Below, piece by piece: positions 67-64,000 of a stretch of 64,000 bases of DNA (positions within the stretch are counted from its first letter, which is position 1; every line of letters begins with the position of its first letter). This DNA is from Prosopocoilus inquinatus (taxonomy: Eukaryota > Arthropoda > Insecta > Coleoptera > Lucanidae): the NCBI GenBank assembly GCA_036172665.1, contig CM069876.1, forward strand, positions 35,991,001 through 36,055,000, in the 5' to 3' direction. The notes beneath the pieces are model-generated. The model searched no databases. It was not told the DNA's origin and worked only from the letters and a program-made list of their open reading frames with translations. The position numbers and the translations under genes were made by a program.

Positions 67-849
67 CTATAATATATATACAAATAAATAAAATATAATA
101 TTAATAAATAAAACTTAAGTATGAGCCCCTACCATATGACCGGCTGAGAACGGGCTGGCGAAAAATTTCAAAAAAAGAACGGGATAAACGCAAAAAAAAC
201 TTAACGAATTTCAAAATTCACTTACCTATACACGACACTAATGAAGTTATAATCACTCACTCTATTTTAATTTACAATTAAGCGAATTTATTACAGATAA
301 ATCAAATAAAATTGACTGAAATTTTTACGGAATACGATCACTTCTATTCGTTTACCGAATTGTTCGTGCACTGGAAAGCGCATGTATCTCTGAAACAAAT
401 GAACAAAAAACTCGTCAAGCCGAGCCTGCTTTTTTTGCAATTTGCAGTTTTGATACAGAAAACATAACTTCATTATTAAAACGTTCTTAATATCGTCACG
501 AGATAGATAATATTATATGGTCGAGGGAATCTTTTTTTATATAATTTTTTTGCAAAGAGCAAAGCAATGAGAACGTCGTAAAATTAAAATACCTACCTCT
601 CTTCTAAAATTAATATTCAATGATTATATCCAGGAACAAATAAGTTGTACCTATCTTAAGCCGCATCCACATCATTAAAAATTTACAGGGTGTTCACGCG
701 AAGCCGCAACAATAGCTAACTTACTTATTTGAATTTTTAGTAAGTACGTAACTTATATTGAAAAAGTTTCAGGATCTTTCCTGCCCAATTTTGTGGCAAT
801 AGCAGAAAAACAAATGACTATCAGGTTTTTGAGATTTTCAATTGTTTTT
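67..849. other. AT-rich stretch with no recognisable gene
   Basis: No splice-bounded reading frame or structured repeat is convincing here. A 60-codon minus-strand frame at 291-473 has no similarity I recognise and no codon signal. The LINE remnant begins at the right-hand edge. Confidence 0.5.
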
Positions 850-1343
850 TAACTACTTGTTTATTTATTCAGAAATTAATAAGATAAATGATAAGGCCAA
901 CACCTTTAGCTTCAGTGAAGTCTCTGAGGATCAAGTTGCTGAAATAATCAATGCTGTGACTTCTACTTCAACTGGTGTCGATGCCATATCTATTGATATG
1001 ATTAAGCGTTGTTGCCCCTACTTGCTTCCTGTTCTTACTCACATTTTTAATTACTGCTTGAGCACGGGTACTTTTCCTTCCCAATGGAAACATGCTAAAG
1101 TAATTCCAATAGCGAAAACGAGGAAGCCATTAAGTTTTCAAGATCTCCGACCAATTAGTATCTTGCCGACCTTGTCGAAAGTTTTGGAGAAAATCATTGA
1201 TAAGCAATTGCGTCATCATTTAGCGTTATGTAATTTATTGCCCCCTTTTCAATCAGGTTTTCGACCTGGCTACAGCTGTTCCACAGCACTTTCGCTTATT
1301 ATAGATGATATTATTAAAGGTATTGATAACAATAAACTTACTG
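850..1343 (+). pseudogene. Reverse transcriptase fragment, N-terminal part
   Basis: This is the first coding part of the LINE, ending in residues IDNNKLT at the insertion point. Bases 1331-1343 (AATAAACTTACTG) are one copy of the 13-base duplication around the inserted element. The same bases at 1925-1937 let the two protein halves join in frame at NKLT-VLILLDF. Confidence 0.85.
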
Positions 1344-1526
1344 AACATATAAAATAGCGACATCTTACTATCGCTTTTTGACCTAACATTGCAGTAGGAT
1401 AGACAAATTGAAGCGGGATTTGCTCCTAATGAGTCCCCCATGCAAGGCGGCCATGCTTGCTGTCAAAGCATAATGAAAGATTTTAGAAAAATTTTGTGCA
1501 AATCGTTTTTGATTGCAGTGAGAACC

Positions 1527-1591
1527 TCGAGCAGCCTCTGGACAGCTGTTTCAGCCCTGCTTGGGGCTTCTTCAGCAGAAACGTAGCTCGA
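1527..1591 (-). ncRNA. Type I hammerhead ribozyme motif (minus strand)
   Basis: On the minus strand from 1591: TCGAGC, loop TACGTT, TCTG, core CTGAAGA, stem II AGCCC with loop CAAGCA and GGGCT, then GAAAC, a 2-bp stem III capped by AGCT, GTC, then CAGA, loop GGCT and GCTCGA. Stem I pairs TCTG with CAGA and TCGAGC with GCTCGA around an internal loop, as in natural type I hammerheads that use a loop I-loop II contact. The predicted cut follows the C of GTC, between plus-strand positions 1541 and 1540. All core nucleotides (CUGANGA, GAAA, GUC) are intact. Confidence 0.85.
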
Positions 1592-1814
1592 TTTGCACAA
1601 AATTTTTCTAAAATCTTTCATTATGCTTTGACAGCAAGCATGGCCGCCTTGCATGGGGGACTCATTAGGAGCAAATCCCGCTTCAATTTGTCTATCCTAC
1701 TGCAATGTTAGGTCAAAAAGCGATAGTAAGATGTCGCTATTTTATATGTTCATCATTCTTACATCGCATTTGCGAATAAATTGGGCAAGTCGTTTTTGGT
1801 CTGCAGTGGGAATG

Positions 1815-1879
1815 TCGAGCTACGATTCTGCTGAAGAAGCCCCAAGCAGGGCTGAAACAGCTGTCCAGAGGCTGCTCGA
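1815..1879 (+). ncRNA. Type I hammerhead ribozyme motif (plus strand)
   Basis: Parts in order: TCGAGC (1815-1820), loop TACGAT, TCTG (1827-1830), core CTGAAGA (1831-1837), stem II AGCCC/GGGCT (1838-1842 with 1849-1853) and loop CAAGCA, GAAA (1854-1857), stem III as 2 bp within the palindrome ACAGCTGT (1857-1864), cleavage C at 1865, CAGA (1866-1869), loop GGCT, and GCTCGA (1874-1879) pairing back to the start. The very short stem III is typical of the minimal hammerheads of Penelope-like elements and retrozymes, which act best as dimers; the ACAGCTGT palindrome would allow that. It is the mirror partner of the motif at 1527-1591. Confidence 0.87.
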
Positions 1880-1924
1880 GGTTCTCACTGCAATCAAAAA
1901 CGATTTGCACAAAATTTTTCTAAT

Positions 1925-2960
1925 AATAAACTTACTGTTCTTATCCTGCTTGATTTCTCCAAGGCCTTCGACATGATCAATCACGACCTACTCTTGACTA
2001 TCTGACACTATTGTGGATTGGATGCAGTTGCGATTGGATTGATAGGTTGCTTCCTTTCGGGTAGGACACAGTCGGTTGTTCTAAATAACTTTAAATCTAA
2101 TAATGTGAGTTTAAGATCAGGTGTTCCTCAGGGTTCTATCATTGGGCCCTTGTTATTTGCCATATATACTTCGAATTTTTTTACCTTCTGGAATACGTTT
2201 TGTAAATGCCATATGTTTGCTGACGACACGCAGCTCTGTGCTTCCTTTGATATTTGTGATTTACAAACTTGTATGACTGGAATCAATAATGAATTGCTTA
2301 AAATCTCTTCCAAACTTTGTTTACAAATCAACCCGAATAAATCTTGCTTTTTATTATTTGGAAGAGATCAAGCACGTAACATTGCTTTACCGTTACTTGA
2401 AATTAAATTAAATAATGTACGTCTCTCCCATCGTGATTGTGTTAAGAATTTAGGCTTACATATCGATTGTAAATTACGTTTCAGGGAACATGTCTCTGCG
2501 TGTATCAGTAAAGCCTATTGTAATATAAAAATGCTATATCCTAACAGGCACATTTTAACCACCAAAGCAAAAGCATCTCTTTGCGAAGCACTAGTTTTAT
2601 CTCATTTTAATTATTGTGACGTGATTTACGGTTCTTGTTTGGATTACAAGGATTCGAGGCGAATACAGGTAGTGCAAAATTCATGCTTGCGATTTATATA
2701 CGGCATTCCAAAACGGCAACATCTCACATAAGTTAAATGACGCAGGTTGGCTTAATATGGTAAATAGAAGATATCTCCATCTCGCATGCTTTTGTCAAAA
2801 AATCCTTTTTTTCAAGACCCCTCCATATCTCCTCTCCAAAATTAGGTATCGTACTGATGTTCACAGTATTAACATCCGTCGTAAAGATCTTATAGATATT
2901 CCATCGTACCGCGCTCTACAAAAGATCTTTCACTTATATTGCTGCTCATTGTCTCAATGA
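1925..2960 (+). pseudogene. Reverse transcriptase fragment, C-terminal part
   Basis: This part carries the LDFSKAFD motif, the VPQGS motif and the FADD active site (about 2214-2235). It has an early TGA after LLLTI, then an open frame at 2018-2731, and a frame change before the segment that starts near 2740 (DAGWLNMVNRRYL). The stop and the frame shift make it a pseudogene. Confidence 0.85.
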
Positions 2961-5605: not shown

Positions 5606-7230
5606 TATGGTCTCCCCTTTACACAGGTTGGTTTATCAAAACAAGAAAAAGAAAAAGAAATATTAACTAACATTATTAAAAAAATATGTATAATATAACG
5701 CAAATCGATAAGGAAAAAAGGTTGATTAAGATCATATCAGCCATGCGGATTTTCGAAGAGTTTCAAGTCAGTGCAGAAGGAATGAATGTTTGGTATTCTA
5801 AAAATTTCTTCGTCTAAAATCAATACATAGGTATGTTTTTCCTGTTTGTATAATTGGATAATAATCAGGCCTAGGCTCATCTTAGGCGGAAGGTTTCGTT
5901 AAATATACGAGGAACTACTAATAAGCTGAAGCGATCATAGTCGGAAAAAGTTCTAATCTTTAACGCGTGTGCACTGTAAAAGCGAAACAATAAACCTGTC
6001 AGAAGTCCGAGAAGTCTATGCGGCACGCAGTAATCACTACAGTTCTGGCCGACTGGATACAAAAACTTGTTTACATAACCGATTCATTCCTAAATAAACT
6101 CACATTCTTTTTGCAGTGACGGCGCTATAATTGATATAAATTAAATGTATTAAGCCAGTCTTTTTAAAAGTTACATTAAAGAATTAAAATGTTTTCATAA
6201 TTATTAATTTGAAAGATACTATCAAGGCACACGTAATTTACATCAAACGGTGGCTTCTGATGCAATGAGCGCGAGGGTGAGAGTGCCTCGGGCATATAAG
6301 CCGTTCAGCGGCGACGTTGAAATCTACGCCGCTGCTTTGTTTATCTTTATACTGGTTCTTATCAGATATCCTAGGAATGTCCGACCCTTACTAATAATTA
6401 GCCAAATGCGTGCAGAATCGAGCCAATTAGCAAAGCATGTAATACACTTCACATTTACTTTTGGCAAAGGCCAAGCATTCCAGCGACCTTTTTACGGCAA
6501 AATAAAATTCCGCGCGAGTCTGCCAAAAACGTGTTTTGTTTTTTTATCGTCCCATCCAAATCGAAAAATGCTTTCAATTTGCTGCGAGAAGTGATCTTTG
6601 ATGAAGCTGTCACCCGCCGACGCACTTCCTGTTTTATATCTGACGGCGCGGCGGGGAATTTTGATTTGCACAAAACTGGGCCTTGTGTAGGTAGGCAATA
6701 AAAGAACAAAAACGAGGAGTTTCGCAAAGGAATGCGGTAGTACGTCGTGAGTTTTCGAGTAATAATAATCATTAATGAATATTTACATGTGTTACAATGT
6801 ATTCGGTGGCAGTATTCTTGATTCGTCGACGAAGGACATATGAGGTGCTTTCTTTCGCTTAAAAGTTTGAACCGTGTTTCGAATTTTTTGGACTTTGGAA
6901 TTTCGTAGTTGTTGCAACAAAACACCTGATTGGAATTTTTGATTAACAGTTCATTTGTAAACAACTATAATTCAATCCAAACAAGTTTTAAAAATAGAGA
7001 GATTCAAAGAAAAGAATGTGTTTTTGAATCAAAACACGTTTGTATCACGATTTTGTGAGCGAAAGAAAGCACCTATGGTTTCACGCAATATAGGAGGAAG
7101 AAGGAAGATGTAAGAAGTAAGAAGTTGAATCAAAGTATCTCTACAGACGGGGGTTAAATAAAAACAAGCAAATGAATTCATGATCTCACAACTTTGAATT
7201 TAGCAGTTTTCGAAAAGTCGAACTATAACG
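5606..7230. other. Intergenic; GC-richer patch at about 6240-6720 without an identified gene
   Basis: Most of this is AT-rich. The patch at 6240-6720 is clearly richer in G and C and has frames on both strands (114 codons plus, 169 codons minus), but neither shows a domain or splice structure I recognise. A CATATAAG word at 6293 could be a TATA box, so the patch might be a promoter or a 5' exon of the small GTPase downstream. I cannot show either. Confidence 0.3.
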
Positions 7231-7474
7231 TCTATAAAAATTTTGTTGCAAATCGTTTTTGATCGTAGTGAAAACTTCGAGTAGCCTCTGTACAGCTGTT
7301 TCAGCCCCATTTAGGGCTTCTTCAACAGAAAGTATTTGCAACAAAATTTTTTAAAACTTTCATTATGCTTTGAAAGCAAGCATGGCCGTCTTGCTTGGGG
7401 TAAAGTTATTATATATCAAACCCGCTTCAGTATGTCTATCCTACTGCAATAATCGCAGGATGTCGCTGTTTTAT
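7231..7474 (-). mobile_element. Hammerhead-family insertion, copy 2 (244 bases)
   Basis: Same family as 1344-1924 but in the reverse orientation, flanked by CTATAACG at 7223-7230 and 7475-7482. The 5' end on the minus strand is the GATAAAACAGCGACATC start, followed by the GTAGGATAGACA block, the GGCCATGCTTGCT block, and a decayed hammerhead at 7276-7330. Its ends match the other copies, and the 8-base duplication differs in length from the others. Confidence 0.75.
7276..7330 (-). ncRNA. Decayed hammerhead motif
   Basis: Stem II (AGCCC/GGGCT), GAAAC and the ACAGCTGT stem III survive. The core starts TTGAAGA instead of CTGAAGA, the cleavage triplet is GTA, and the distal stem I strand upstream of the core is missing. 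It is probably inactive: loss of the first core C alone should abolish cleavage. Confidence 0.7.
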
Positions 7475-7482
7475 CTATAACG

Positions 7483-23500: not shown

Positions 23501-26500
23501 GCAGAGAACATGAAGTCAATAAAGGCCATCAACAACTTCATCTTCAGCGAGCCCGTCTCGAAGAAACAGGACAAGTCCGTCTTGGAAGTTCCTGAGGTAC
23601 CCAACAACTTTAAGCCCCCAAGTGAAAACAAGAGAATTCAACCGCCACCCAAATCAGAAGTTAACAAAGAGACTGCCCCAAATGTACTTACCTGGGAATG
23701 CCCCGTGTGTCTCATTCGGAATATCCCGGGGAATGCTTGGTGTAAAGCCTGCAACGCTTTGCACAGTGATACAAAAGAAAAATTGAAGGCCCCGAGTGAA
23801 CAGCGAACTTCAAACGTGGTCGACAAGAATAGTTTCGGTGGAAACTTCAAGCTCTCTGCAGATAAGTGGGAGTGTGCAACTTGTCTGGTTAGAAATAATG
23901 TTGCTGATAGTAAATGTGTCGCATGTACGACACCTCGAGCCGGTGCCCCAAACACAGCAACAACAACAACAACAACAGCACCCACACCGATGACTACAGG
24001 CAGTGGTTTCGGGGATAAATTCAAGCCACCATCAAATTCATGGGAATGCACAGTTTGTATGATTAGAAATAAAAACGAGCTCACAAAGTGCGTGGCTTGT
24101 GAATCACCGAGATCCGCCGGAAATAAGTTGGTAGCAAAGCCAGCAGATTTTGGAAGTAGTTTCAAAAAGAAAGAGAGTGAGTGGGAGTGTGACAGTTGTA
24201 TGGTGCGAAACTCAGCTGATTTAAATAAATGTCAGTGCTGTGAAGCTGCAAAGCCGGGCAGCGCAAACCCCACTCTAAACCTGCCGAGAGAGAAAAGCAC
24301 GTTGTCTACTTTTAATTTTGGAATTGATAAAAGCAGCGTGACAAACACGCATGGCTTTACTCTGCTTGCTAAGACAAATGAAAATGGACCGATTGCAAGC
24401 TCGATTTTCGGTCAAAGTTCTAACGTGACAGTTCCAACATCCACACCACTGACTTTCACTTTCGGGGTCAAACCTCAAACCATTCAAGATCAGCCGAGTA
24501 CTTCGGAGGCTCTATCCAGCAGTTCTAAGCCACCCATCTTAAATGTTGAAAAACTTGAAGAAGTGAGTGTGAAACCCACAGGATTTGTGTTTGGGGCGAA
24601 CGCTCCGACGCCTATCAACAGTTTCGTGTTCAAGGAACCTTTGCCTGTTGCCACGAATTCAGCGAACGCAGAAATTGCAAAAGATGTTTCCAAGTCGGAT
24701 AAACCCGTGTCCTTAAACGGTGATATTAACAAGAGCGAGTCAGTATTTAAAAGTGCACCGAGTTCGATGCCTCAATTAAACCCAAGCGTCCAAACAAACA
24801 CTGTAAGCTTTCCAGAATCAGGAAAAGACGCTGTCCCAAATTTGTTTGCATTCGGTGCTAAACCACAGTCTCAATCTCAACACCAACCGGAACTCCCCCA
24901 ATCTTTATTTGGTGGAAGCAACAACAACGACGGTCAATCGTCTACTTTATTTAAATTCATGCCAACTGAAAATAAAACTGTTGTGAACGACAAGTCATTT
25001 GGTTCGCCTTTCGCCTTTCGTGGTGCTGCCGGTGGTTCATCGAACAATTCAGTATTCGGACAGACGAATTCAGCCTCGTTTGGAACTGCGACACCCTCCA
25101 CGGGGGCCTTCGATGTTCAAGCAAAACCGTTCTCCTTTGGTGCCGCCAGCGCTAATAGCCAGCCGGACTCGACCCCAAAGACGTTTTCCTTCGGGCAAAA
25201 CGCGGTTACCAAACCTGAAACGGCAAATCTGTTCAGTTTCGGTGGAAACAGCGGTGGCAGTTCTGCTGCTCCCACCCCAAATATATTCAACTCGCCCCCG
25301 AATGTGAGTGTCGTTCAACCAAGCGGCGGTGGTGGTTTCAGTTTTAACTCGCCTCCGTTCGGGTCTTTGTCTCAGCCTGCGCAGAATGGAACTTTCAATT
25401 TCGGTGGAAACGTAAACGCTGCACCGAAAGCCGGGTTTAGTTTTGGTGCTCCTACTGCTGCTCCGGCTGTTCAGCCGACTGTTGCACCTCCCCCCGTCAA
25501 CGCCCCGGGGATTTTCAATTTTGGCGCACCACCTAATTTGGTAAGTAAAATACAAAGTTAATGCTTTAAGTTTTTTTTTTTTATTTGTTAATTACAGAGT
25601 GTTACTGTATTCATGTCTTTAACAGTGTTCCCACTCAGCGGAAAAAGATAGGGAATTGTGAATGGGTTCACAATGTCGGGGAAAAGTCACGGAATTTGTT
25701 TTTTTTTTTTTCATGCTAAAGTCAATGAAGTTAATTGAAGCACTGGAAACTCGAATATAAATTTGTTTTCTAAAATTAAAAAAAAAAAAAAAAATTAGAT
25801 TTGAGAAGAAAAGAGATTGATTCGACCTCTAAGACGGTTTTACGCTATCCTATTTCTTTTGTGTGCAAGATTTGGTTCATTTTCCTTGAAGTGCAGTGAC
25901 TTGTATTAAAAATTAAATTGAATCAGAGTTTTCTAGAGTCTAGAAAAATACAACATGTTCTATCTCCAAACCATATCTATAGCTCAACTATTAGAGAAAT
26001 AGAACCAAATTTTGTTATTGGAATAGGGTAGTCTAAAAGGACCTTGAGACTCATAATGAGGCATGATTGCTTTCATAACCTCTGATTGCTTTCATAACTT
26101 TCAGAATATTTTTATTTACTGCAAATTACACAAATTCTACGATTTTTTTAAACATATAAAATAGCGACATTTTACTATCGCTTTTTGACCTAACATTGCA
26201 GTAGGATAGACAAATTGAAGCGGGATTTGCTCCTAATGAGTCCCTCATGCAAGGCGGCCATGCTTGCTGTCAAAGCATAATGAAAGATTTTAGAAAAATT
26301 TTTTTAAAGTTGGAAACTGTGCAGCAATGTAGGCAATGAAATGGGTTTGCGTTACAAAGCACAGTGATTTTTTATAGATAAAATATGGCAACATTGCAGG
26401 TGTACAGTCAGATTAAAAAATAATAATAATTTTTTGTGTTTTGTTCGAAACAGATGACAATTAATTACTTCTCATTGGTCAGTTTTGGAGTTTTTTTTTG

Positions 26501-47165: not shown

Positions 47166-50100
47166 GTAATTAATTAATAGTAATTAAATGGAATGAAGTT
47201 CGCAGGAATATAGGGTATCTGTCTATGAAAGAATTTAAGGATGATAATGAAACACAGTTTGACACATTTTTTTTATTACATACCTATACAATCCATTCGA
47301 AAATGAAATTGCAATTAAGAAGTCAGCTTCAATCATAATTTTAAATGTGATACATATTCAGTATGGACTGTTGTATTTAACTGTGATTTAAATGGCAAGG
47401 TTTCACATTAGGGCTCAGGTATACATATAATTTATTAAAAACATATTTATTAGTGTCTGTAAATACACTTTTGGAACACATTGGTACTAGGTACAGTTTG
47501 TAACTGACCTGTATTCTTGACAGCACCGAACTTTCTGTATTAATATTTTTTTTTCAGTTTTATGTTTTAAAAGATTCAGCCGCAACATAAATGTGTTGTT
47601 AACTTCAAGTTTTTTTGTACAGTTTTCTGTCTGTGCTCTAGACAGCAAGCAAATATACTTTAAAATAGATTGTTTGGATGAACAACGACTTACTTAATTA
47701 CATGTGACAAAGTTATAAGCAACTGTATGTTCTAATACTGATAAACGAACAAACCTCCAGCTTTCGTTTGAACATTTATGTTTTGTGAGACGAGCAATTT
47801 ATCCAAAAACAAACAATATAATCCGTGATATTAGTAACTTAAGAATAATTTCGATGCCTTAAGTCGTCACAATAAAAACGAGAAAGGAATTTACTATCGT
47901 ACTGCTTTATCTGTGCTTTAAATGTGCTTGAATCACCATAATATATTTATGGGCCAGTTTTTTCTTCTTTTTTCTTTAATTTACATGACTGTTTTAATTC
48001 CAATTATAGATGTGCATTGAATTCTTGTTTTGTCGGCCTCGCATTAAACAATGTTCTGTCTTCATTTCAGAGCTTTTTTTTGGTACAAAACGTTAAAGAG
48101 ATGTCGGAAAATTGCTTTATGGACGTTATTGAACTTGAGTGAGTGAGTAGCTTGAACCGGTGACGTTTGAATTAGTTCATGAACTCTGTCCACTTGTAAA
48201 GTATGTATTTTTTGTTTACATAAATGTTTCACATACTTTTGTTTACATTTATTTCATGTGTTGATTTTTTTCTGCATTTATTACTTATTTATTAACGAAC
48301 AGATAAAACAGCGACGTCCTACGATCGCTTTTTGACCTGACATTACATCGGAATTGCGAATAAATTGGACAAGTCGTTTTTGGTTTGCAGTGGGAATTTC
48401 GAGCTACGTTTCTGCCTGACGAAACGCCAAACAGGGCTGAAACATCTGTACAGAGGCTGCTCGAAGTTTTCACTGCAATCAAAAAAGATTTGCAACAAAA
48501 TTATTTATTAACAATGAAAAATTCATCACTCAGATGGTGCTAAGAAAGTTTGAAATGTAATAGAACTAAAGGAGACTTTAAAGTCACATTCAGATGTTAA
48601 AACAAACGTGAAACGTACTTATTTACGCATCAGAATGTGACTTTAAATTTAAATCTGCTTTGTTCGATTATATTTATGAACCCGGCCCAAGAATCGAACG
48701 ATTCATAGCACGTATATTCGGCTAAAGAAGTGAGGAGAATCTCAGAAAGGAAAATCTGTTACTTACTTTTCTTTATGCTTTTATTTCTTTTTTATTAATC
48801 AAAAGTATAGGTACTTTTGCAGATGATACTAAAAATTATTGAAATGATGAACTATTAAACTGAAGCCCGATCTTTTCCCCTCCTTGTAAATTTACCTACC
48901 CTATAAACTCTTTGGAAACAATAATATAGCCAATACTGTACATATATAACACATTTCAACTGATAGATAAGTTAACCTTTTAATTATTTTAGCCAACTTT
49001 TCATTTGTTCACTTGAGTACAGTAACAGGCAAGAATATGACAGAATATACATATTAAGACGTATTTAGTAAAGCAATCTTGTATTGGGACTTTATGTTGC
49101 TGCCAAAATACAAGAAAATTAATTATAAATTAACGTACTTATTATTAAAAAAATTACTCCGTATTTTACTGTCACTTACTATACATTTCATTATCATTGC
49201 ATCCATGTAGGGATCACGACGAATAGAATTCTATTTTAGTGACGTCACATCGTTTCTAGGCGACTGCTTATTGTACGGTGAGCGTCTTCCGTTGCTAGGC
49301 AACGTGACGTCATAAAAATAGAATTCTATTCGTCGTGATCCCTACACTGGTCTGCTTGAAATCACATGACGTTCTGTAACTTGTTTCAAGTGTCCAATTT
49401 GGTCCAGTTGAAAAGTTCATCAGGTGGCCTTTGTATTTTTGATGAAGCAAGTTTTAAAGTAGACTTCTGCGCAATGTCACTTTTCTAATTTCAGATAGAA
49501 AAAAAAACACTCCGATTAATGTCATCCGTTAAACGTCAATCTTGACGTTTACGAAAGTCATGCCTTTTCGCTCTGTCTTTTTTCGGCAAAAAATTAAAAT
49601 CGACGTCATGAATTTCTCTCTTGAACACTTCGTGGATTTAAAAAACTTGCTCCCTGCGATTTCGATACTTGCTGAGAATTTTCTTTATCGTTGAAACACG
49701 AGTGGCCATGAGTCAGAAGCATCCAGTAATTTATTTTCGAGAAAATTACCGAGTGGCTGACACCTAGCGGAAGTTTTGTGAAAGGCCCTGTAATAAGGAA
49801 AACATTGCAATATTTGGAATAACATTTCACTAACTTCTAAAAAAAATATTAAACTGAATTGTTTGTTTGGTTTGTTTGTGGTGCTTCCAAACTTTTAGCT
49901 TAACAGGAAGGATATGAAACAAATAAAACACTTTAGAAACAAGCTAAAAACTTAATTTTATTACTTACTTAACGCTTCGCAAGCTTGATTGCTTGTTTTA
50001 TCAAAAGTGAATAACGGAATTATTTGTTTCACATCGTTTCTGCAATTCTCACGAGCAAGAACTATACGAAAATAAATTTTAGCATAATAATTTTCATAAG

Positions 50101-59100: not shown

Positions 59101-62100
59101 GATGCAGCAAACAATGAGAACGAAGTCGAGTTAAGGAATTCATTATCTGACGACCTTGAACCAGAACATGATCAAGTTGTAAAACAAAATAGTCTTGCAC
59201 GTGGTCAGGAGGAAATTGTTGGTGAATTAGTTGCAGAGCAAACATGTAACGCGAGTCAAACTGACGAATTTGATTTGGTGGATTTACAAAGTGAAGACGA
59301 ACAGTTTGAACCACGTCTGCCACCCAATCAGCTTTTAAAGAAAGATGTAGAGGATCAGGAGAAAATTGTTGGTGATTTAATTGCAGAGCATACATGTAAT
59401 GCAAGTCAAACTGACGAATTTGATTTGGGGGATTTACCAAGTGAAGACGAACAGTTTGAACCAGGTCTGCCACCCAATCAGATTTTAAAGAAAGATGTAG
59501 AGGATCAGGAGAAAATTGTTGGTGATTTAATTGCAGAGCATACATATAATGCAAGTCAAACTGACGAATTTGATTTGGGGGATTTACCTAGTATTGAAAA
59601 CAAACCGTTTAAATCACATCTTCCTTCCAACCAGGTTCTAAAGAAAGGTGTAGTAGGTCAGGAGGAAATTGTTGGTGAATTAGTTGCAGAGCATACATGT
59701 AATGCGAGTCAAACTGACGAATTTGATTTGGAGAATTTACCAAGTGAAAACGAACCGTTTGAACCACGTCTACCACCCAACCAATTTCTAAAACAAGATG
59801 TACAGGGTCAGGAGAAAACTGTTGTTGAATTAGTTGCAGAGCAAACATGTAACGAGAGTCAAACTGACGAATTTGATTTGGGGGATTTATCAAGTGAAGA
59901 CGAACAGTTTGAGCCGCGTTTGGCACCCAACCAGATTCTAAAGAAAGATGTACAGGGTCAGGAGAAAACTGTTGTTGAATTAGTTGCAGAGCAAACATGT
60001 AACGCGAGTCAAACTGACGAATTTGATTTGGAGGATTTATCAAGTGAAGACGAACAGTTTGAGCCACGAATGCCACCCAATCAGATTTTAAAGAAATATG
60101 TACGGAATCAGGAGAAAATTGTTAGTGATTTAATTGCAGAGCATACATGTAATGCAAGTCAAACTGACGAATTTGATTTGGGGGTATTACCAAGTGAGGA
60201 CGAACAGTTTGAGCCGCGTGTGCCACCCAACCAGATTATAAAGAAAGATGTACAGAGTCAGGAGAAAACTGTTGTTGAATTAGTTGCAGAGCAAACATGT
60301 AACACGAGTCAAACTGACAAATTTGATTTGGAGGATTTACCAAGTGAAAACGAACCGTTTGAACCACGCCTACCACCCAACCAATTTCTAAAACAAGATG
60401 TACAGGATCAGGAGAAAACTGTTGGTGAATTAATTGCAGAGAAAACATGTAACGCGAGTCAAAGTGACGAATTTGATTTGGGGGATTTACCAAGTGAAGA
60501 CGAACCGTTTGACCCACGCCTACCACCCAACCAATTTCTAAAACAAGATGTACAGGGTCGGCAGAAAACTGTTGAATTAATTGCAGAGCAAACATGTAAC
60601 GCGAGTCAAACTGACGAATTAGATTTGGGTGATTTACCAAGTGAAATCGAACCGTTTGAGCCATGTCTGCCACTCAACCAGGTTCTGAAGAAAAACCAAT
60701 TTCAAGAGGAAGAAGTTTTTTGTGAGTCAGTTGCAGAGCAAACGAGTAAAAGTGACAAATTTAATTTGGGGGATTTACCAAGTAAAAATGATGTACAGTT
60801 TGAACCACCTAACCAAGTTCTAAAAGGAGATCGATTTGAGGAGGAAAAAATTGTCAACGACTCAATCGCAGAGCAAACGTGTAATGCAAACGAAACTAAC
60901 AAATTTGATTTAAGGGATTTACTCACTGAAAGTGACATACAGTTCAAACCATCTAATCGAGTTCTGGAAGGAGACCGACTTGAGGAGGAGAAAATTATTC
61001 ATGAGTCAATCGCAGAGCAAACTTGTAATGCAAACAAAACTGCTGACAAATTTGATTTGGGGGATTTACCTAGTGAAAATGAGCAAATTACACCGCCTAA
61101 CCAAGTTCTAAAAGAAGACCGACTGGAGGAGGAGAAAATTGTTGATGAATCAATCGGAGAGGAAGTATGTAATGCAAACAAAAGACACAAATTTGATTCG
61201 GGGGATTTACCCAATGAAAGAAAACGCTGTAAATCACGTCCGCCAAGGAAACAGAACGGTACAAACTTATTAAAAAAGAGAGTTGATTCCGTTGATCTGA
61301 AATCGTCAGTGTTAAACAAGAGCAACATTGAATCAGAATCTAAATTAAGCGACGACCAAAGTTGTTCTGATCCAAGCAGGGAATTCAATGAGCCGTCTTT
61401 TGCTCATAGAAACAAGAAACGACGTGAAGACTCATCCCCAGAGAAAGCCAAGCTACACATAAATAATGAGCCAGTCGGTGCACTAACAAATCCAAATAAT
61501 TTGAAACCTGGCCATTTGAATCCAGAACTCGAAGATAGCTGTGAGCCCGCAACAGACGATTTTCTGTGCGGGAGGAATTTCCCTGCAAGTAAAAGTAAAT
61601 TTCGAGATGAGAGTCCTTGCCATTTGAATGCAGAACTCGAAGATAGTTGTGAGTTAGCAACAGACGATTTTCTGTGTGAGGGGAATTCCCCTGCAAGCAA
61701 AAGTAAATTTCAAGATGGGAGTGAAGTAGAGCAAAATATTTCTGGGGATAAAGTTCAACCTGACGGCACTGAAAGCGCATTGGCTTTCAATTCTGATACT
61801 ACTGCACTTTCACTTAATAAAGAAAATATCGCAAATTATGATGTAATTGACAAGAATGTAAATGCTTTTTCAACCATAGAGTGTGAGGCACGAATTATTA
61901 GCGATGAAGAAATTCCGGAAAGTGTTGGTGATTCACCGAAAGCAAAAGAACGCAGTCATGAGCCCTCTAATAGCGTTGAAGTGCAAGAAAAGCGAGAGCC
62001 AAAGACGGAAACAAACGAAAGCACTGCCGTTGTTAATAAACCGCCGATTAGAACTGAGCAAACCAGCTTAGATTCATGTATTGCGCCCAATGGCAACTTT

Positions 62101-64000
62101 GCAACAGAAATAAATGACGGCGCTTACTTGAATGGAGAACCGCCAATCAACTCTGCGCATATGAGTCTAGCCTCATCAGCTTCCACTGCCAATAAAAATT
62201 TGGAAACGGCAGAAACAAATGAAGACGCTATTGGTCACGCTATTCCCCCACATAAAAGTATTCCGGCAAGCCTAAAATCGTCTGCGAGTTTGAGTGAGAA
62301 CGCTGACGTTGAAGCAAGTCTAGACACATCATCTATTCTGATTAATGAAAATTTGACTATAGAAACAAATGAGAGTAACACGCTAATCAAAAATGAGCAA
62401 ACTAAGTCGGACCAATTAGTTCTGACCAGTGGGAATTTGAGTGGGAAAATTAATGATAGTGACACGCCAATCAAAAATTTGCAAGTTAAGACAGATTCAT
62501 CAATTCTGACTAATGAGAATTTGATTACAGAAATTAATGATAGTGACACACCAATCAAAAATGTCCAAACTAAATCAGACGCATTAATTCCGACCAATGG
62601 GAATTTGAATGCAGAAATTAATGATAGTGTCGCACCAATCAAAAAAGTCCAAACTAAACCAGACTCACTAGTTCTGACCAATGAGAATTTGACAGCAGTA
62701 ATTAATGATAGTCTTACACCAAACAAAAATGACCAAACTAAATCAGACCCATTAGTTCTGACCAATGAAAATTTGACTGCAGAAATGAATGATGGTGAAA
62801 CACCAATCAAAAACGTGCAAGCAAACTTGGCCCCAACTGTTCTGACCAATGAAAATGAAAATTTGATGACAGAAACAGTTGTTGGTGACATTCCAATCAA
62901 AACAGGTCAAGAAAACTTAAGCGCATCTGTTCAGACCAATAGAAATTTTATGACGGGAACCAATATTAATAACATACCAAACAAAACTCTTCAAACTAAC
63001 TTAAAGCCGACAGTGAAAGAATGTCAGAGTCAACATCAAAATGAGTCTTCTGTTCTTGATGATGTACAAGAAAAAGAAGCGTCTGCTTTAATCAAATCGA
63101 CAGAAATAAATGAAAGCTCTCCCATAATTAATGTGCAAACAAGCTTAGACTCGTCTGTTTCGTCCAATGGCAATTTCGCAACAGAAATAAATGAAACCTT
63201 TGCCGAAAGAGATTTGGACACAATAGAAACAATTGAGGATGATAATCCACCAATGAAAAGTGCGCAAGAACCTGTTTTGACCATCAATACGAGTTCTACA
63301 GCCGAAACAAGTGACGTTAAAGCAAGCCTAGACTCGTCTACGCTGACCAATACAGAAACAAACATTATTGCCACGCCTATCAAAACTGTGCAAACAAACT
63401 TAAAGCCTTTGGCTTTGGCCAATGAAAATATGACTTGCGAAAAAAATGTTAGTGAGGCACTAATCAAGACTAACTTAGAACCAATGACCAATGGAAACCT
63501 AACATCAGAAACAAATGTTAGTGACCTGCCAATTGAAACTGTGCAAACAAATTTAGAGCTACCCAGTGCAAAATTGTTTTCAGAAACAAATGTTAGTAAC
63601 ATATCAATAGAAACTGTGCAAACAAATTTAGAGCAGCCGCCCAGTGCAAATTCGACCTTGGAAATAAACGATTGTCTCGCGCCAATCGAAAACGTGCAAA
63701 CTAACTTAAAACCATCCATCCTAACCATTGACAATTTAAAGACAACAGAAAGTAAAGCGCCAATCGAAACTGTGCAACCAAATTTGGCCACGACTCCTTC
63801 TACCATCGAGCATTCGACTGCTGCAGAAACAAACCAATCGCCGATCCAAACTGTTTCGACCGACAAGAAGCTCGAGGCAGAAACAAATGGGAACGCTGAC
63901 ATTACTGAAGGTCCGCCAATCAAGAATTTAGCCGCCAGTGACAGTTTCCGAGTGCAACAACAAGTGAAACCAGATCCGTTTATGATCGACGAGAAACAGG
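41093..64000 (+). CDS. Large SIM- and repeat-containing protein, unrecognised (partial, at least 2651 residues)
   Basis: Exons: 41093-41186, 41253-41337, 46437-46542, 46666-46943, 47000-47165 and 56776 to beyond the window. All junctions are GT-AG and phases agree (1, 2, 0, 2, 0). Residues 1-243 begin MIRKEDGGSTSGGRDW, pass a basic PRRRRQERG stretch, and form a probably helical domain (IKSLLHTVSYENSDEIALAI, YVERIRRELFLLC, LARYVELEYIVLYA, LLHKSVLFVLQQVGTRYW). From residue 244 it is acidic and low in complexity, with SUMO-interaction-like cores (VILTIDLTSE, IIVISDGD, VIDLTSDGE) and three families of tandem repeats. A nuclear, SUMO-linked scaffold is a reasonable inference. I could not name a family, and the C-terminus lies outside the window. 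Confidence 0.85.
42308..44470 (+). repeat. hAT-like dispersed repeat, copy 4, interrupted
   Basis: The left part (42308-42801) has CTGGGAAAACCGGGAAATG, ATAGTGTCAGGGAAAAG and AAGCAACCATACAAACG. The right part (44257 to about 44470) resumes at ACTAAGGCTTCTTATTTTTT and has GGGGAAAACCTGGAAAAGTC. The break is filled by the hAT element. Confidence 0.65.
42802..44256. mobile_element. Non-autonomous hAT element, 1455 bases
   Basis: Ends CAGGGTTGCCAGATT and AATCTGGCAACCCTG are exact complements. Flanking octamers are GCCTATAC (42794-42801) and GCCTCTAC (44257-44264), one mismatch. The interior is very T-rich; an 83-codon hydrophobic frame at 43434 reflects composition, not a transposase. Confidence 0.85.
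48071..48142 (+). CDS. Possible alternative terminal exon
   Basis: After TTTCATTTCAG (to 48070) an in-phase frame gives SFFLVQNVKEMSENCFMDVI, then ELE, then TGA. It could follow exon 5 (phase 0) to make a short protein of about 266 residues without the repeat region. A donor-like GTGAGT at 48139 would leave phase 2 and cannot join exon 6 in frame, so only the terminal-exon reading works. It may be chance. Confidence 0.3.
   Translation, partial: SFFLVQNVKEMSENCFMDVIELE
48297..48500 (+). mobile_element. Hammerhead-family insertion, copy 4 (204 bases)
   Basis: Flanked by perfect 12-base repeats TTATTTATTAAC (48285-48296 and 48501-48512). Starts GAACAGATAAAACAGCGACG, then a short hairpin (GCGACGTCCTACGATCGC), CTTTTTGACCTGACATTAC, GCGAATAAATTGGACAAG, the hammerhead region, and ends GATTTGCAACAAAA. 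It is the simplest copy: one unit, one orientation, clear boundaries. Confidence 0.82.
48399..48464 (+). ncRNA. Partly decayed hammerhead motif
   Basis: TCGAGC, TACGTT and TCTG are followed by an extra C, the core CTGACGA (48416-48422), a disrupted stem II (AACGCC, loop, GGGCT), GAAAC, ATCTGTA where the palindrome was, then CAGAGGCTGCTCGA restoring stem I. Core CUGANGA and GAAA are present, but stem II is broken and the cleavage triplet is GTA, so activity is doubtful. Confidence 0.7.
48555..48660. repeat. Imperfect hairpin repeat
   Basis: AGACTTTAAAGTCACATTCAG at the left is mirrored by CAGAATGTGACTTTAAATTT at the right. The wording resembles the small hairpin at 33347-33416. Confidence 0.5.
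48866..48935 (+). repeat. TAAGGCCCGATC hairpin family, fragment
   Basis: GAAGCCCGATCTTTTCCCCTCC, then TTTACCTACCCTATAAACTC and TTTGGAAACAATA, matches the left half of the MITE at 12139-12272. The right half is missing. Confidence 0.55.
49207..49345. mobile_element. Hairpin MITE, GTAGGGATCACGACG family (139 bases)
   Basis: The left end GTAGGGATCACGACGAATAG pairs exactly with the right end, followed by AATTCTATTTT and the TGACGTCA-containing arms. Its ends are shared with the 1.47 kb element at 52474-53945. Confidence 0.85.
50221..50359. mobile_element. Hairpin MITE, TGGGCGCGTTCAGT family (139 bases)
   Basis: TGGGCGCGTTCAGT at the left and ACTGAACGCGCCCA at the right. Inner arms GACGCTCA/TGAGCGTC and CGTTTGTGATTGGCT/AGCCAATCACAAACG also pair, around a short loop. 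Confidence 0.82.
50360..50600. mobile_element. Hairpin MITE, AACGTCATTTCCGTT family, copy 1
   Basis: CAGATAAACGTCATTTCCGT at the left is complementary to ACGGAAATGACGTTTATCTG at the right. The ACAAGTAAG/CTTACTTGT pair also matches. The outer ends are diverged; the same design lies at 51943-52163. Confidence 0.78.
50619..50959. mobile_element. Inverted-repeat MITE of about 340 bases
   Basis: CTATACCACAGATTAACTCA and GATGCGACACT at the left match the reverse of AGTGTCGTATCTGGTTAATC and TGTGACTATA at the right. The interior is unrelated. Confidence 0.7.
51480..51735 (-). repeat. TCTGGCAGA family repeat, copy 5
   Basis: Contains TCTAATCTTGCTTGCTC, CACCTAACCCTGCTTGCTTA and TTCTTTGCTGAAATATGGCG, and ends near CTAGCTAGAGTCCGGCAGA. 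Same block order as 13356-13560. Confidence 0.65.
51943..52163. mobile_element. Hairpin MITE, AACGTCATTTCCGTT family, copy 2 (221 bases)
   Basis: Ends TAGGCGTGTTCTTTTTGCC and the near-complement finishing GAACACACCTA. The inner AAATAAACGTCATTTCCGTT arm pairs with AACGGAAATGACGTTTATCT. This copy defines the family ends better than copy 1. Confidence 0.82.
52474..53945. mobile_element. Long-terminal-inverted-repeat element, 1.47 kb, probable parent of the 139-base MITE
   Basis: The left end GTAGAGATCACGACAAATTG, AATTCTATTTTTGTGA matches the right end TGACGTCACAAAAATAG, AATTCTATATTCCTAC. Pairing resumes 150-200 bases inside: TTAGTAACGTATTTATCTG and GATGGCGCCA at the left against TGGCGC... (CCTAGCGCCAGC) and GCGGATAAATACGTTACTAA at the right. 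A separate MITE lies inside at 52681-52824. Internal frames, including 76 codons on the minus strand at 53675-53905, have no recognisable transposase. Confidence 0.7.
52681..52824. mobile_element. Hairpin MITE, TTCTTTAGGTC family (144 bases), nested
   Basis: TTCTTTAGGTCTTCTTCTC, ACACATTCATTTAAGTAATA and CGTATATTCTG at the left pair almost throughout with the right half ending GAGAAGAAAACCTAAAGAA. Confidence 0.82.
54985..55212 (+). repeat. Dispersed repeat (CGGCCCACTTG family), copy 3
   Basis: From AAGAAATCGGCCCACTTG to CCAACACTAAGTGGGCTG. The fullest copy of the repeat at 20740-20975. Confidence 0.75.
55314..55452. mobile_element. TAAGGCCCGATC hairpin family, copy 2
   Basis: TTAGGTCCGATTTTTTTCTT, CACCTTCTAATAAATTTATC at the left; TTATCAGTAGGTGAAGAAAT and TTGGCATTAA at the right. 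It is placed head to tail with copy 3. Confidence 0.75.
55453..55585. mobile_element. TAAGGCCCGATC hairpin family, copy 3
   Basis: TAAGGCCCGATTTCTTTAGC at the left and AGGAGATAAAGAAATCGGGC, ATAA at the right, with TTTATCTGCCAGATAGTATC inner arms. It starts at the base after copy 2 ends. Confidence 0.8.
56530..56674. mobile_element. Hairpin MITE just upstream of exon 6
   Basis: GGTGGGTTTCACAAAAAAAT, then AATCAATGATTAATTTAA at the left; TTAAATTAATCAGTGATTAA, then TTTTTACGAAACTGGGGGT at the right. The right end is about 100 bases from the exon 6 acceptor. Confidence 0.8.
56776..64000 (+). CDS. Giant exon 6: SIM region and tandem repeats, open to the window end
   Basis: The acceptor TTTCAG ends at 56775. 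The frame (first bases at 56776 + 3n) is open for 7225 bases with no stop. Residues 244-1050 are Ser/Glu/Asn-rich with SUMO-interaction-like motifs at about residues 284 (VILTIDLTSE), 358 (IIVISDGD) and 384 (VIDLTSDGE), and a weaker PIINIDNAEE near 591. Residues about 1054-1720 are the 50-residue repeats, 1823-1894 the two 36-residue repeats and 2099-2325 the 28-residue repeats. More degenerate repeats continue to the edge. Cysteine is rare and no zinc finger, membrane segment or enzyme motif is visible. Confidence 0.9.
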   Translation, partial: MPEVNANKTNSFGPSVLIKTEKVKIEKVKSAEDEDVKQCGVILTIDLTSEAQIDEDKTNTSCSTGKQQSISDRCSEPDLSNKDLSNSIVQTVEEEIAVVKSTNDSSARCLQGNDIIVISDGDVPADDEEESVSVPNAKADVIDLTSDGEQEVQECVAQDKTSEDPVPVPAVICPAPSPPRVPSPRSPPVNRVDEICDNNEPAPIIQHVWMRSVTVNQVNEVSSSVISESDEVSRNEEVPANDGNVSSTGNSPSRNSVVPYSNGEISSTTGKLDENALIELIYRKQSDLVDNCNFENSPSQSGSVYSKKFEAEKECGISSPTNNLDLIESARVQNNDEVGKRLEEEVPIINIDNAEESTNDPCSSKQSEIASAQSDVSKSESERLAASCHQEEEHISRSLAEKERNHRNVHSMEIAEHALLLINIEALTEQIEKKQQRGESYRNLHSIKPAENDASNSPLLFSGAKSRTSTEEVQEQPHTSPNDVLDRNAKQLNVDNSLTNEFTNNQKSTLDERLLEKTDEAQIRESDAVETMMNHSECNSEANEDISLILEALINACTDEKVIKTQNIEAQSVNKPTRVIFEQIDERIFSDVIINEYNELVNRIDEYENQIVDHGKESSQDSDELKPPRNQIQFKNDDKDSLLMENSNYQKENNELQMESSLMQGIEASDAFVIDQRQLKSKPDDFLDSSFAEICVSGEPTAETQVQENLVLDLLAENVVNIEFDDQIEEESVLAESFHVEDDEQSDVQALILIKNERVPDWPTLQKKIIDAEKRDAANNENEVELRNSLSDDLEPEHDQVVKQNSLARGQEEIVGELVAEQTCNASQTDEFDLVDLQSEDEQFEPRLPPNQLLKKDVEDQEKIVGDLIAEHTCNASQTDEFDLGDLPSEDEQFEPGLPPNQILKKDVEDQEKIVGDLIAEHTYNASQTDEFDLGDLPSIENKPFKSHLPSNQVLKKGVVGQEEIVGELVAEHTCNASQTDEFDLENLPSENEPFEPRLPPNQFLKQDVQGQEKTVVELVAEQTCNESQTDEFDLGDLSSEDEQFEPRLAPNQILKKDVQGQEKTVVELVAEQTCNASQTDEFDLEDLSSEDEQFEPRMPPNQILKKYVRNQEKIVSDLIAEHTCNASQTDEFDLGVLPSEDEQFEPRVPPNQIIKKDVQSQEKTVVELVAEQTCNTSQTDKFDLEDLPSENEPFEPRLPPNQFLKQDVQDQEKTVGELIAEKTCNASQSDEFDLGDLPSEDEPFDPRLPPNQFLKQDVQGRQKTVELIAEQTCNASQTDELDLGDLPSEIEPFEPCLPLNQVLKKNQFQEEEVFCESVAEQTSKSDKFNLGDLPSKNDVQFEPPNQVLKGDRFEEEKIVNDSIAEQTCNANETNKFDLRDLLTESDIQFKPSNRVLEGDRLEEEKIIHESIAEQTCNANKTADKFDLGDLPSENEQITPPNQVLKEDRLEEEKIVDESIGEEVCNANKRHKFDSGDLPNERKRCKSRPPRKQNGTNLLKKRVDSVDLKSSVLNKSNIESESKLSDDQSCSDPSREFNEPSFAHRNKKRREDSSPEKAKLHINNEPVGALTNPNNLKPGHLNPELEDSCEPATDDFLCGRNFPASKSKFRDESPCHLNAELEDSCELATDDFLCEGNSPASKSKFQDGSEVEQNISGDKVQPDGTESALAFNSDTTALSLNKENIANYDVIDKNVNAFSTIECEARIISDEEIPESVGDSPKAKERSHEPSNSVEVQEKREPKTETNESTAVVNKPPIRTEQTSLDSCIAPNGNFATEINDGAYLNGEPPINSAHMSLASSASTANKNLETAETNEDAIGHAIPPHKSIPASLKSSASLSENADVEASLDTSSILINENLTIETNESNTLIKNEQTKSDQLVLTSGNLSGKINDSDTPIKNLQVKTDSSILTNENLITEINDSDTPIKNVQTKSDALIPTNGNLNAEINDSVAPIKKVQTKPDSLVLTNENLTAVINDSLTPNKNDQTKSDPLVLTNENLTAEMNDGETPIKNVQANLAPTVLTNENENLMTETVVGDIPIKTGQENLSASVQTNRNFMTGTNINNIPNKTLQTNLKPTVKECQSQHQNESSVLDDVQEKEASALIKSTEINESSPIINVQTSLDSSVSSNGNFATEINETFAERDLDTIETIEDDNPPMKSAQEPVLTINTSSTAETSDVKASLDSSTLTNTETNIIATPIKTVQTNLKPLALANENMTCEKNVSEALIKTNLEPMTNGNLTSETNVSDLPIETVQTNLELPSAKLFSETNVSNISIETVQTNLEQPPSANSTLEINDCLAPIENVQTNLKPSILTIDNLKTTESKAPIETVQPNLATTPSTIEHSTAAETNQSPIQTVSTDKKLEAETNGNADITEGPPIKNLAASDSFRVQQQVKPDPFMIDEKQ
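59206..61250 (+). repeat. Coding tandem repeat, 14 units of about 150 bases (50 residues)
   Basis: Unit starts (codon for the I/T in the EK(I/T)V word): 59215, 59365, 59515, 59668, 59818, 59968, 60118, 60268, 60418, 60568, 60715, 60850, 60994 and 61138. The spacing is 150 bases for eight of the first nine intervals (153 for the other), then 147, 135, 144 and 144. The consensus reads VGELVAEQTCNASQTDEF, DLGDLPSEDEQFEP, RLPPNQILKKDVQGQEK. Central units are very similar in DNA sequence, so the array grew recently. The last four are diverged. No indel breaks the frame. Confidence 0.92.
61513..61728 (+). repeat. Coding direct repeat, two units of 108 bases (36 residues)
   Basis: Units 61513-61620 and 61621-61728 both begin HLN(P/A)ELEDSCE and continue ATDDFLC and (F/S)PASKSKF. 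Confidence 0.9.
62341..63010 (+). repeat. Coding tandem repeat, eight units of 84-90 bases (28-30 residues)
   Basis: Unit starts: 62341, 62425, 62509, 62593, 62677, 62761, 62845 and 62935. The consensus is TNENLTAEINDSDTPIK, then NVQTKSDPLVL. The first six intervals are exactly 84 bases and the last is 90 because NEN is duplicated. Loose copies of the TNxNL...PIK(T/N)VQTNL pattern go on to about 63800. Confidence 0.9.

Follow-up and report, generated by a model that had tools for sequence, protein, structure and literature searches.

Insert A, a 581-bp insertion that carries two hammerhead ribozymes in opposite orientation, is likely a copy of a 312-nt non-autonomous retrozyme family of the beetle Prosopocoilus inquinatus, with a type I hammerhead and no recognised open reading frame (ORF). 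Penelope-type machinery would have copied the retrozyme RNA, circular or multimeric, with priming from either target strand and with starts at two fixed sites inside the RNA. Family, integration and life cycle are judged together here, and we consider the whole probable. The hammerhead motif, the family, the end sites, the pairing of ends, the duplications and the equal pairing in host Penelope-like elements can be read from the sequence, from which we infer an RNA circle, self-cleavage and the identity of the helper. Both ribozyme and retrozyme are of known kinds, while the two-site insertion signature was not found in the literature searched, as far as the portions of those papers that were available extend.

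Insert A and its target

Insert A lies in the analysed window (the whole stretch of 64 kb) and is bracketed by an exact 13-bp target site duplication, as had been stated from the sequence alone. It interrupts the reverse-transcriptase (RT) ORF of a LINE (Table 1): RVT_1 is detected on either flank, and NNKLT, which derives from the duplication, is present in both flanking frames. The inverted partial units noticed earlier could be mapped as a 248-nt minus tract and a 336-nt plus tract (335 nt match) of a 312-nt repeat, numbered u1 to u312, and both tracts overlap and join at a common CGA (1589-1591). The complementary arms thus formed comprise 109 nt with 99% identity. With the two target ends as primers, reverse transcription of one retrozyme RNA would have yielded a 248-nt cDNA beginning at u162 and a 335-nt cDNA beginning at u23, which would then have been joined at CGA. 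We regard insert A as a dead-end copy that records its mechanism of integration, with arms that would pair. Since it has one hammerhead per strand and lacks a tandem pair in the same orientation, it could probably hardly yield unit circles. Rfam also gave miRNA-like matches at 1427-1666, which were set aside, as any long inverted repeat gives such matches.

Table 1. Features of insert A and of further retrozyme copies in the window
Feature	Position	Strand	Remarks
LINE reverse-transcriptase ORF pieces	833..2731	+	833-1357 and 2006-2731, split by insert A
Left target site duplication, insert A	1331..1343	+	exact AATAAACTTACTG match
First cDNA tract, insert A	1344..1591	-	u162 down via u1 and u312 to u227; starts at site 2
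Type I hammerhead	1527..1591	-	predicted cut between 1541 and 1540
Second cDNA tract, insert A	1589..1924	+	u1-312, then u1-23; start on opposite target strand, site 1
312-bp repeat unit u1-u312	1589..1900	+	23-nt repeat 1589-1611 = 1901-1923, spacing 312
Type I hammerhead	1815..1879	+	predicted cut after 1865
Right target site duplication, insert A	1925..1937	+	copy of AATAAACTTACTG
Copy B	7231..7474	-	~85-87% identical, inverted; 8-bp duplication CTATAACG, 7223-7230 and 7475-7482, weak alone
Copy C	26153..26297	-	99%; single tract u160 to u16, not inverted; duplication ATTTTTTTAAA, 26142-26152 and 26298-26308
Copy D	48297..48500	+	~88-89%, inverted; duplication TTATTTATTAAC, 48285-48296 and 48501-48512

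The hammerheads of insert A

Judged by sequence, the observation of two opposed type I hammerheads in one insert is confirmed. A strict descriptor (stem I of at least 4 bp, CUGANGA, stem II of at least 4 bp, GAAA, stem III of at least 2 bp ending in U, H17) detected two loci in 64 kb, with cores at 1831 (+) and 1575 (-), exactly where the sequence-only reading had placed them, and gave no match in 300 dinucleotide shuffles of the window on both strands. If stems I and II were relaxed to at least 3 bp, the same two loci were returned and one match occurred in 100 shuffles. Both loci comprise the CUGANGA, GAAA and UH core and three stems, with stem I open, as defined for type I hammerheads. The recomputed cut sites are predicted at the positions named before. 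From the stem layout described earlier, the core and the minimal stem III of 2 bp could be kept, whereas stem I differs between the copies: it has 7 bp on the minus strand but 5 bp on the plus strand, with one A/T difference at unit position 237. Stem III reads AC[AGCU]GU, with a palindromic AGCU tetraloop. Since this 8-base palindrome pairs with itself (-11.1 kcal/mol), a dimer would be the active form. In a single copy, a fold other than the active one has the lowest energy (-23.5 vs -17.5 kcal/mol for the plus copy, -26.8 vs -20.8 kcal/mol for the minus copy).

The Rfam comparison is less clear. At the gathering score no match was obtained in the whole window, an outcome that formally counts as a refutation by the test proposed with the sequence-only reading, which asked for a hit above threshold. 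With E values up to 10, the only hammerhead match within 1300-2000 was RF02275 (HH9), with 14.5 and 13.2 bits (E 2 and 4.9). When 81-base windows were compared with RF00163 (Hammerhead_1, type I), both copies aligned at full length (1-45 of 45), over the entire core and stems, with 21.6 bits (E 0.0018) for the plus and 23.8 bits (E 0.00032) for the minus copy. Both scores fall below the gathering score of 34, which is a curated cut-off outside the biochemical definition of a hammerhead. We nevertheless retain the identification, because the conservation pattern across the genome was weighed above the Rfam score.

A peptide-like open frame runs through the hammerhead (1815-1923 on the plus strand, and likewise in the minus copy): SAEEAPSRAETAVQRLLEVLTAIKNDLHKIF. 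A coding reading was rejected, as no relatives of this frame or of a 97-aa frame were found and the changes in copy D single out no frame; the rows of copy B, being out of register, were excluded from that comparison.

A retrozyme family in the beetle genome

Among the named hits of the Nup153 protein encoded in the window, beetle proteins are the closest. A search of the 650-Mb assembly with the 312-nt unit, in which 40 of 85 candidates were scored, returned at least 101 matches in at least 40 loci. Tracts were mapped in the 39 loci other than insert A, as well as in window copies A to D. The longest, with 1079 and 1117 nt (L010 and L011), comprise about 3.5 units and contain three and four descriptor hammerheads, respectively. 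According to the available text of Cervera and de la Peña (2020, PMC7229834), metazoan non-LTR retrozymes are small repeats of about 170-400 nt with a GC content under 45-50% and a type I hammerhead, arranged as dimers to multimers and flanked by duplications of more than 4 bp. The beetle unit agrees in all these respects: it is 312 nt long with 43% GC, L010 and L011 are tandem copies with a type I hammerhead in each unit, the duplications measure 8-17 bp, and coding capacity is limited to the 97-aa frame mentioned above. The ORF of Penelope-like elements, with telomerase-like RT and GIY-YIG, is absent from the unit. Outside the host the family was not detected in phages, and the exact 23-base pattern was absent from the viral and genome contigs searched.

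The earlier suggestion of retrozyme-like or Penelope-like mobilisation is thereby backed by 39 further loci and by the host Penelope-like elements described below. The beetle ribozyme resembles the type I form with weak helix III of amphibian retrozymes more than the minimal hammerhead form of Penelopes. Such a helix with a tetraloop is described for the axolotl in the available part of the same paper (PMC7229834), along with better cleavage by dimeric constructs.

Repeats elsewhere in the window, with matches up to 25 bp, raise the null expectation for duplications, and a short duplication carries little weight by itself; for the 8-bp duplication of copy B, 18 of 478 random places do as well. 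L036 and L037 (C15:3029300-3032500 and C6:30069700-30072900) are one locus on two contigs in opposite orientation, with flanks identical over 250 bases on each side, and represent a duplication or an uncollapsed haplotype.

Ribozyme conservation across copies

With the duplicate locus L037 left out, 73 hammerhead copies were available, which reduce to 47 distinct rows that are not independent. Among these rows, mismatches to the unit affect 12 of 515 core cells and 149 of 2340 cells elsewhere. N7 (A 23, C 15, T 9) and H17 (A 31, C 11, T 2, G 2), the two sites at which a hammerhead tolerates change, rank among the most variable. Selection for cleavage would give such a pattern of few core mismatches and variable N7 and H17. 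The G at H17 in 2 of the 47 rows counts against it. The stem II pair adjoining the core is A-U in nearly all rows, where G-C is usual, and this may lower ribozyme activity. In copy B the core is damaged by a change of C3 to U, and in copy D by a one-base insertion and a disturbed stem II; the long-stem pairs of copy D are the same in 44 cases, kept by a one-sided change in one, compensated in none and broken in five.

Two-site end pattern of the insertions

The ends of the retrozyme insertions are the feature that points to a mechanism. They concentrate at site 1 (about u22) and site 2 (about u162), to which the automatic tally assigned outer ends lying within 12 nt. After removal of the duplicate locus L037, 48 tract clusters were counted, and 29 of them are head-to-head, that is, the first tract is minus and the last tract plus, so that both cDNA starts face the flanks. 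One outer end lies at site 1 and the other at site 2 in 24 of these 29, both at the same site in none. In the remaining five, among them L015, L017, L033 and L035, one end was left unassigned, and the missing end of copy B was placed at u157 by hand. A further inverted copy at L049:2006-2467, with ends at about u159 and u20 and a 14-bp duplication, adds one more two-site pair. A GIY-YIG match that belongs to another family is located some 500 bp away.

For 25 hand-curated inverted copies (without L015, L017, L033, L035, the complex L020 and L037), the site means are 22.0 (sd 3.2) and 162.0 (sd 2.7). Arcs equal to 12% of the unit hold 63 of 68 cDNA starts, L015, L017 and L033 included, and 3 of 50 inner ends of simple copies. 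An estimate of end clustering from the four window copies alone (1 in 1,000,000) is superseded by these genome loci. Own duplications flank 23 of the 25 curated copies; they measure 12 bp in 11 of 23 and range from 8 to 17 bp. Among 21 selected copies, the duplications are 83% AT, with AC before them in 11 and GT after them in 6, and this sequence pattern suggests a symmetric target close to AAC-N12-GTT. Among the non-inverted copies, C, L010 and L016 run from site 2 to the vicinity of site 1; the other single tracts stop elsewhere. The inner junctions of head-to-head copies are scattered along the unit. In the curated set, junctions at u227, u237 and u113 recur four times each in otherwise different copies; these may be preferred places of strand transfer, or the A/T polymorphism at 237 may have influenced the alignment.

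The opposed arrangement of ribozymes, which the sequence-only reading had called unusual, is thus common in the family, and because of this it looks like a by-product of integration without a function of its own. One might still speculate that the two ribozymes of insert A form a functional pair whose members regulate each other, given that neither motif shows damage in its sequence and that the arms containing them are long and complementary. However, other head-to-head copies have different middles, the cores of copies B and D are damaged, and among the copies there is no sign that the insert A arrangement is kept; we give this idea practically no credence. An origin at the DNA level, either as a two-ended DNA element with internal deletions or as an artefact of palindrome-making amplification or assembly, would suit the fixed outer ends, the variable middles and the long inverted arms. 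It is very improbable nonetheless, since the duplication length varies, the middles are differing joins of tandem-unit tracts with scattered inner ends, and nearly all curated copies are flanked by a duplication of their own.

Another scenario invokes LINE machinery, which would have moved the retrozyme RNA, while the inversions would stem from twin priming, in which one strand primes at the RNA 3' end and the other internally. A LINE is indeed present in the window, and L1 insertions with an inverted 5' part, duplications and short junction overlaps are known, 639 of 2068 (30.9%) being inverted according to the available text of PMC2912911. However, twin priming as described there fixes the 3' end of the RNA only, whereas both outer ends of the retrozyme are fixed and its single tracts start at either site. 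Inversions are moreover a minority in LINE products, and in primates inversion is very rare among short RNAs mobilised in trans (Alu 1 of 5554, SVA 4 of 477; same portion of PMC2912911), in contrast to 29 of 48 retrozyme clusters. The AC and GT motif of the host target is also symmetric, unlike the TT/AAAA of L1. We therefore consider LINE-driven movement unlikely and turn back to Penelope-type integration.

Host Penelope-like elements

A GIY-YIG domain search of the host genome, with 150 of 2232 candidates scored, gave at least 150 matches, many of them as minus/plus pairs. Among 30 returned loci, 25 belong to one family (the L067 family), which is Penelope-like because the ORF of L067 carries RVT_1 and GIY-YIG; a candidate hammerhead-like core lies downstream of the stop codon. 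L049, L050, L052, L053 and L058 did not match this family and were put aside; apart from the retrozyme copy within L049, none of them resembles the retrozyme in sequence.

All 3' ends of the L067 family, among hits that reach position 1990, fall at 2005-2018 or 2045-2060, where 2060 is the end of the query. This resembles the published Penelope tail. The inverted pairs flanked by duplications (11-16 bp) have one end at each site in 18 of 18 cases, with the sites about 39 nt apart. L059 is excluded from this set, as are L075 and L077, which repeat L074 and L076; no usable pair was obtained from L082, L078-L083 had been chosen for two close domains and L084-L087 for medium spacing. In L059 both ends lie at one site, there is no duplication and the flanks are mirror images; it is perhaps a larger inverted duplication. 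AC precedes the duplication in 4 and GT follows it in 5 of the 18 pairs, a weaker form of the retrozyme motif. The arms of 10 of the 18 pairs (L060, L074, L078-L081, L083 and L085-L087, five of which had been picked for shortness) end no more than 20 nt apart on the RNA. These pairs are near-perfect palindromes, such as would arise if each cDNA had been extended to the 5' terminus of a single linear RNA.

Penelope-type integration involves both strands being extended from internal RNA sites, with inverted ends and a tail as its products, and this is the structure of the 24 head-to-head retrozyme clusters and of all 18 Penelope-like pairs. Since retrozyme and Penelope-like family share this uncommon insertion rule in one genome, Penelope-type machinery is the most likely mover. 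The link rests on the insertion pattern, not on sequence similarity: the comparison of the Penelope-like 3' region (L067) with the retrozyme was not significant (best 21, with the 95% level of shuffles at 23). The difference in site spacing, about 140 nt in the retrozyme vs 39 nt in the Penelope-like family, counts against a common helper.

RNA template and life cycle

The 98 tracts with their 196 ends, counted here with the duplicate locus L037, cross the predicted ribozyme cut 88 times, while 3 of 196 ends lie near it, and 32 of 98 tracts exceed one unit. Consequently, reverse transcription used a circular RNA or an uncut multimer as its template instead of a linear unit released by cleavage. 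The predicted 312-nt circle folds with -108.8 kcal/mol (z -6.6), and its two longest unpaired runs, u151-175 and u13-34, hold both start sites. However, in an alignment fold of 18 diverged units site 1 is open and part of site 2 is paired, which speaks against this picture; the covariation in that fold is slight, with two-sided change in 6 of 99 pairs and 105 inconsistent cells.

Bilateral integration might also have used an uncut linear multimer, so that self-cleavage and circles play no part. The frequent crossing of the cut site would agree with this, and so would the Anolis element, in which, as far as the available text of PMC11167929 goes, ribozyme mutants still insert and unprocessed RNA is the main substrate in vitro. 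The conserved ribozyme core argues, in contrast, that cleavage matters. Furthermore, the inner ends of the two retrozyme cDNAs are uncorrelated (within 20 nt in 4 of 25 curated copies), as an endless template gives, whereas those of the Penelope-like pairs lie within 20 nt in 10 of 18, half of these 10 having been selected for shortness. An uncut multimer is hence a serious candidate, although we would rate it at somewhat less than an even chance.

In the life cycle that we propose by analogy with published animal retrozymes, tandem copies would be transcribed, hammerheads would cut the multimers to units, probably as tandem dimers through the palindromic ACAGCUGU of stem III, and the units would be ligated into circles. 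Judging from the insertion structures, a Penelope-type enzyme would cut the two strands of an AT-rich target at positions about 12 bp apart. The 3' ends thus released would serve as primers on a single retrozyme RNA, where reverse transcription would begin at about u22 from one end and at about u162 from the other. Each cDNA would extend 5'-ward for a variable length, in some cases over more than 3 units, and the pair would be joined head to head, often with an overlap of a few bases.

Going one step further, the retrozyme might be a parasite of Penelope-like elements, and both might integrate by an obligate two-site, two-strand reaction. The enzyme, an RT-endonuclease acting as a dimer, would bind one RNA at two internal sites, with one site and one target strand assigned to each subunit; the two cDNAs would be made on that same RNA, a circle in the case of the retrozyme, and fused head to head. 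The opposed ribozymes would be the fingerprint of this reaction. We lean slightly toward this more specific model.

Comparison with known systems and implications

Published retrozymes are tandem repeats, and the word "inverted" is absent from the main text of PMC7229834, whereas most beetle copies are head-to-head with two fixed outer ends. Among the titles and abstracts listed in searches of the open-access literature, none deals with retrozyme copies in inverted arrangement or with a retrozyme from a beetle.

With Penelope-like elements the retrozyme shares inverted terminal copies, a tail between two RT start sites, similar duplications, cutting and extension of both strands and an RNA hammerhead, according to the available portions of PMC3846280 and PMC11167929. 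Rotifer Penelopes possess inverted pLTRs and an optional tail at one of them (PMC3846280), and the Anolis Penelope-like protein cuts and extends both strands in vitro, where reverse transcription starts at two internal RNA sites that are not homologous to the target (PMC11167929). The retrozyme differs by the lack of an ORF, by sites about 140 nt instead of 30-40 nt apart, and by having no significant similarity to the host family. A strict rule of one end at each site is not stated in the main-text portions of either paper. It is also not predicted by the Anolis work as described there, because both strands used the same start sites without preference (PMC11167929).

Penelope-like elements have been proposed as a strong candidate mover of animal retrozymes, a proposal that rested on shared hammerheads, tandem copies and co-existence (PMC7229834, main text), while the repeats were said to show no motif that would reveal a helper (PMC7761336, in its available part). 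The end pairs described here would be such a helper signature, readable in any genome by a simple census, and add a mechanistic link to that proposal. The strict one-end-at-each-site rule in the Penelope-like family itself bears on how this class of retroelements integrates.

Elsewhere in the window, long tandem repeats occur at 59205-61219 and 62314-62945. Their periods of 150, 144, 84 and 168 are divisible by 3, and they apparently lie in coding sequence.
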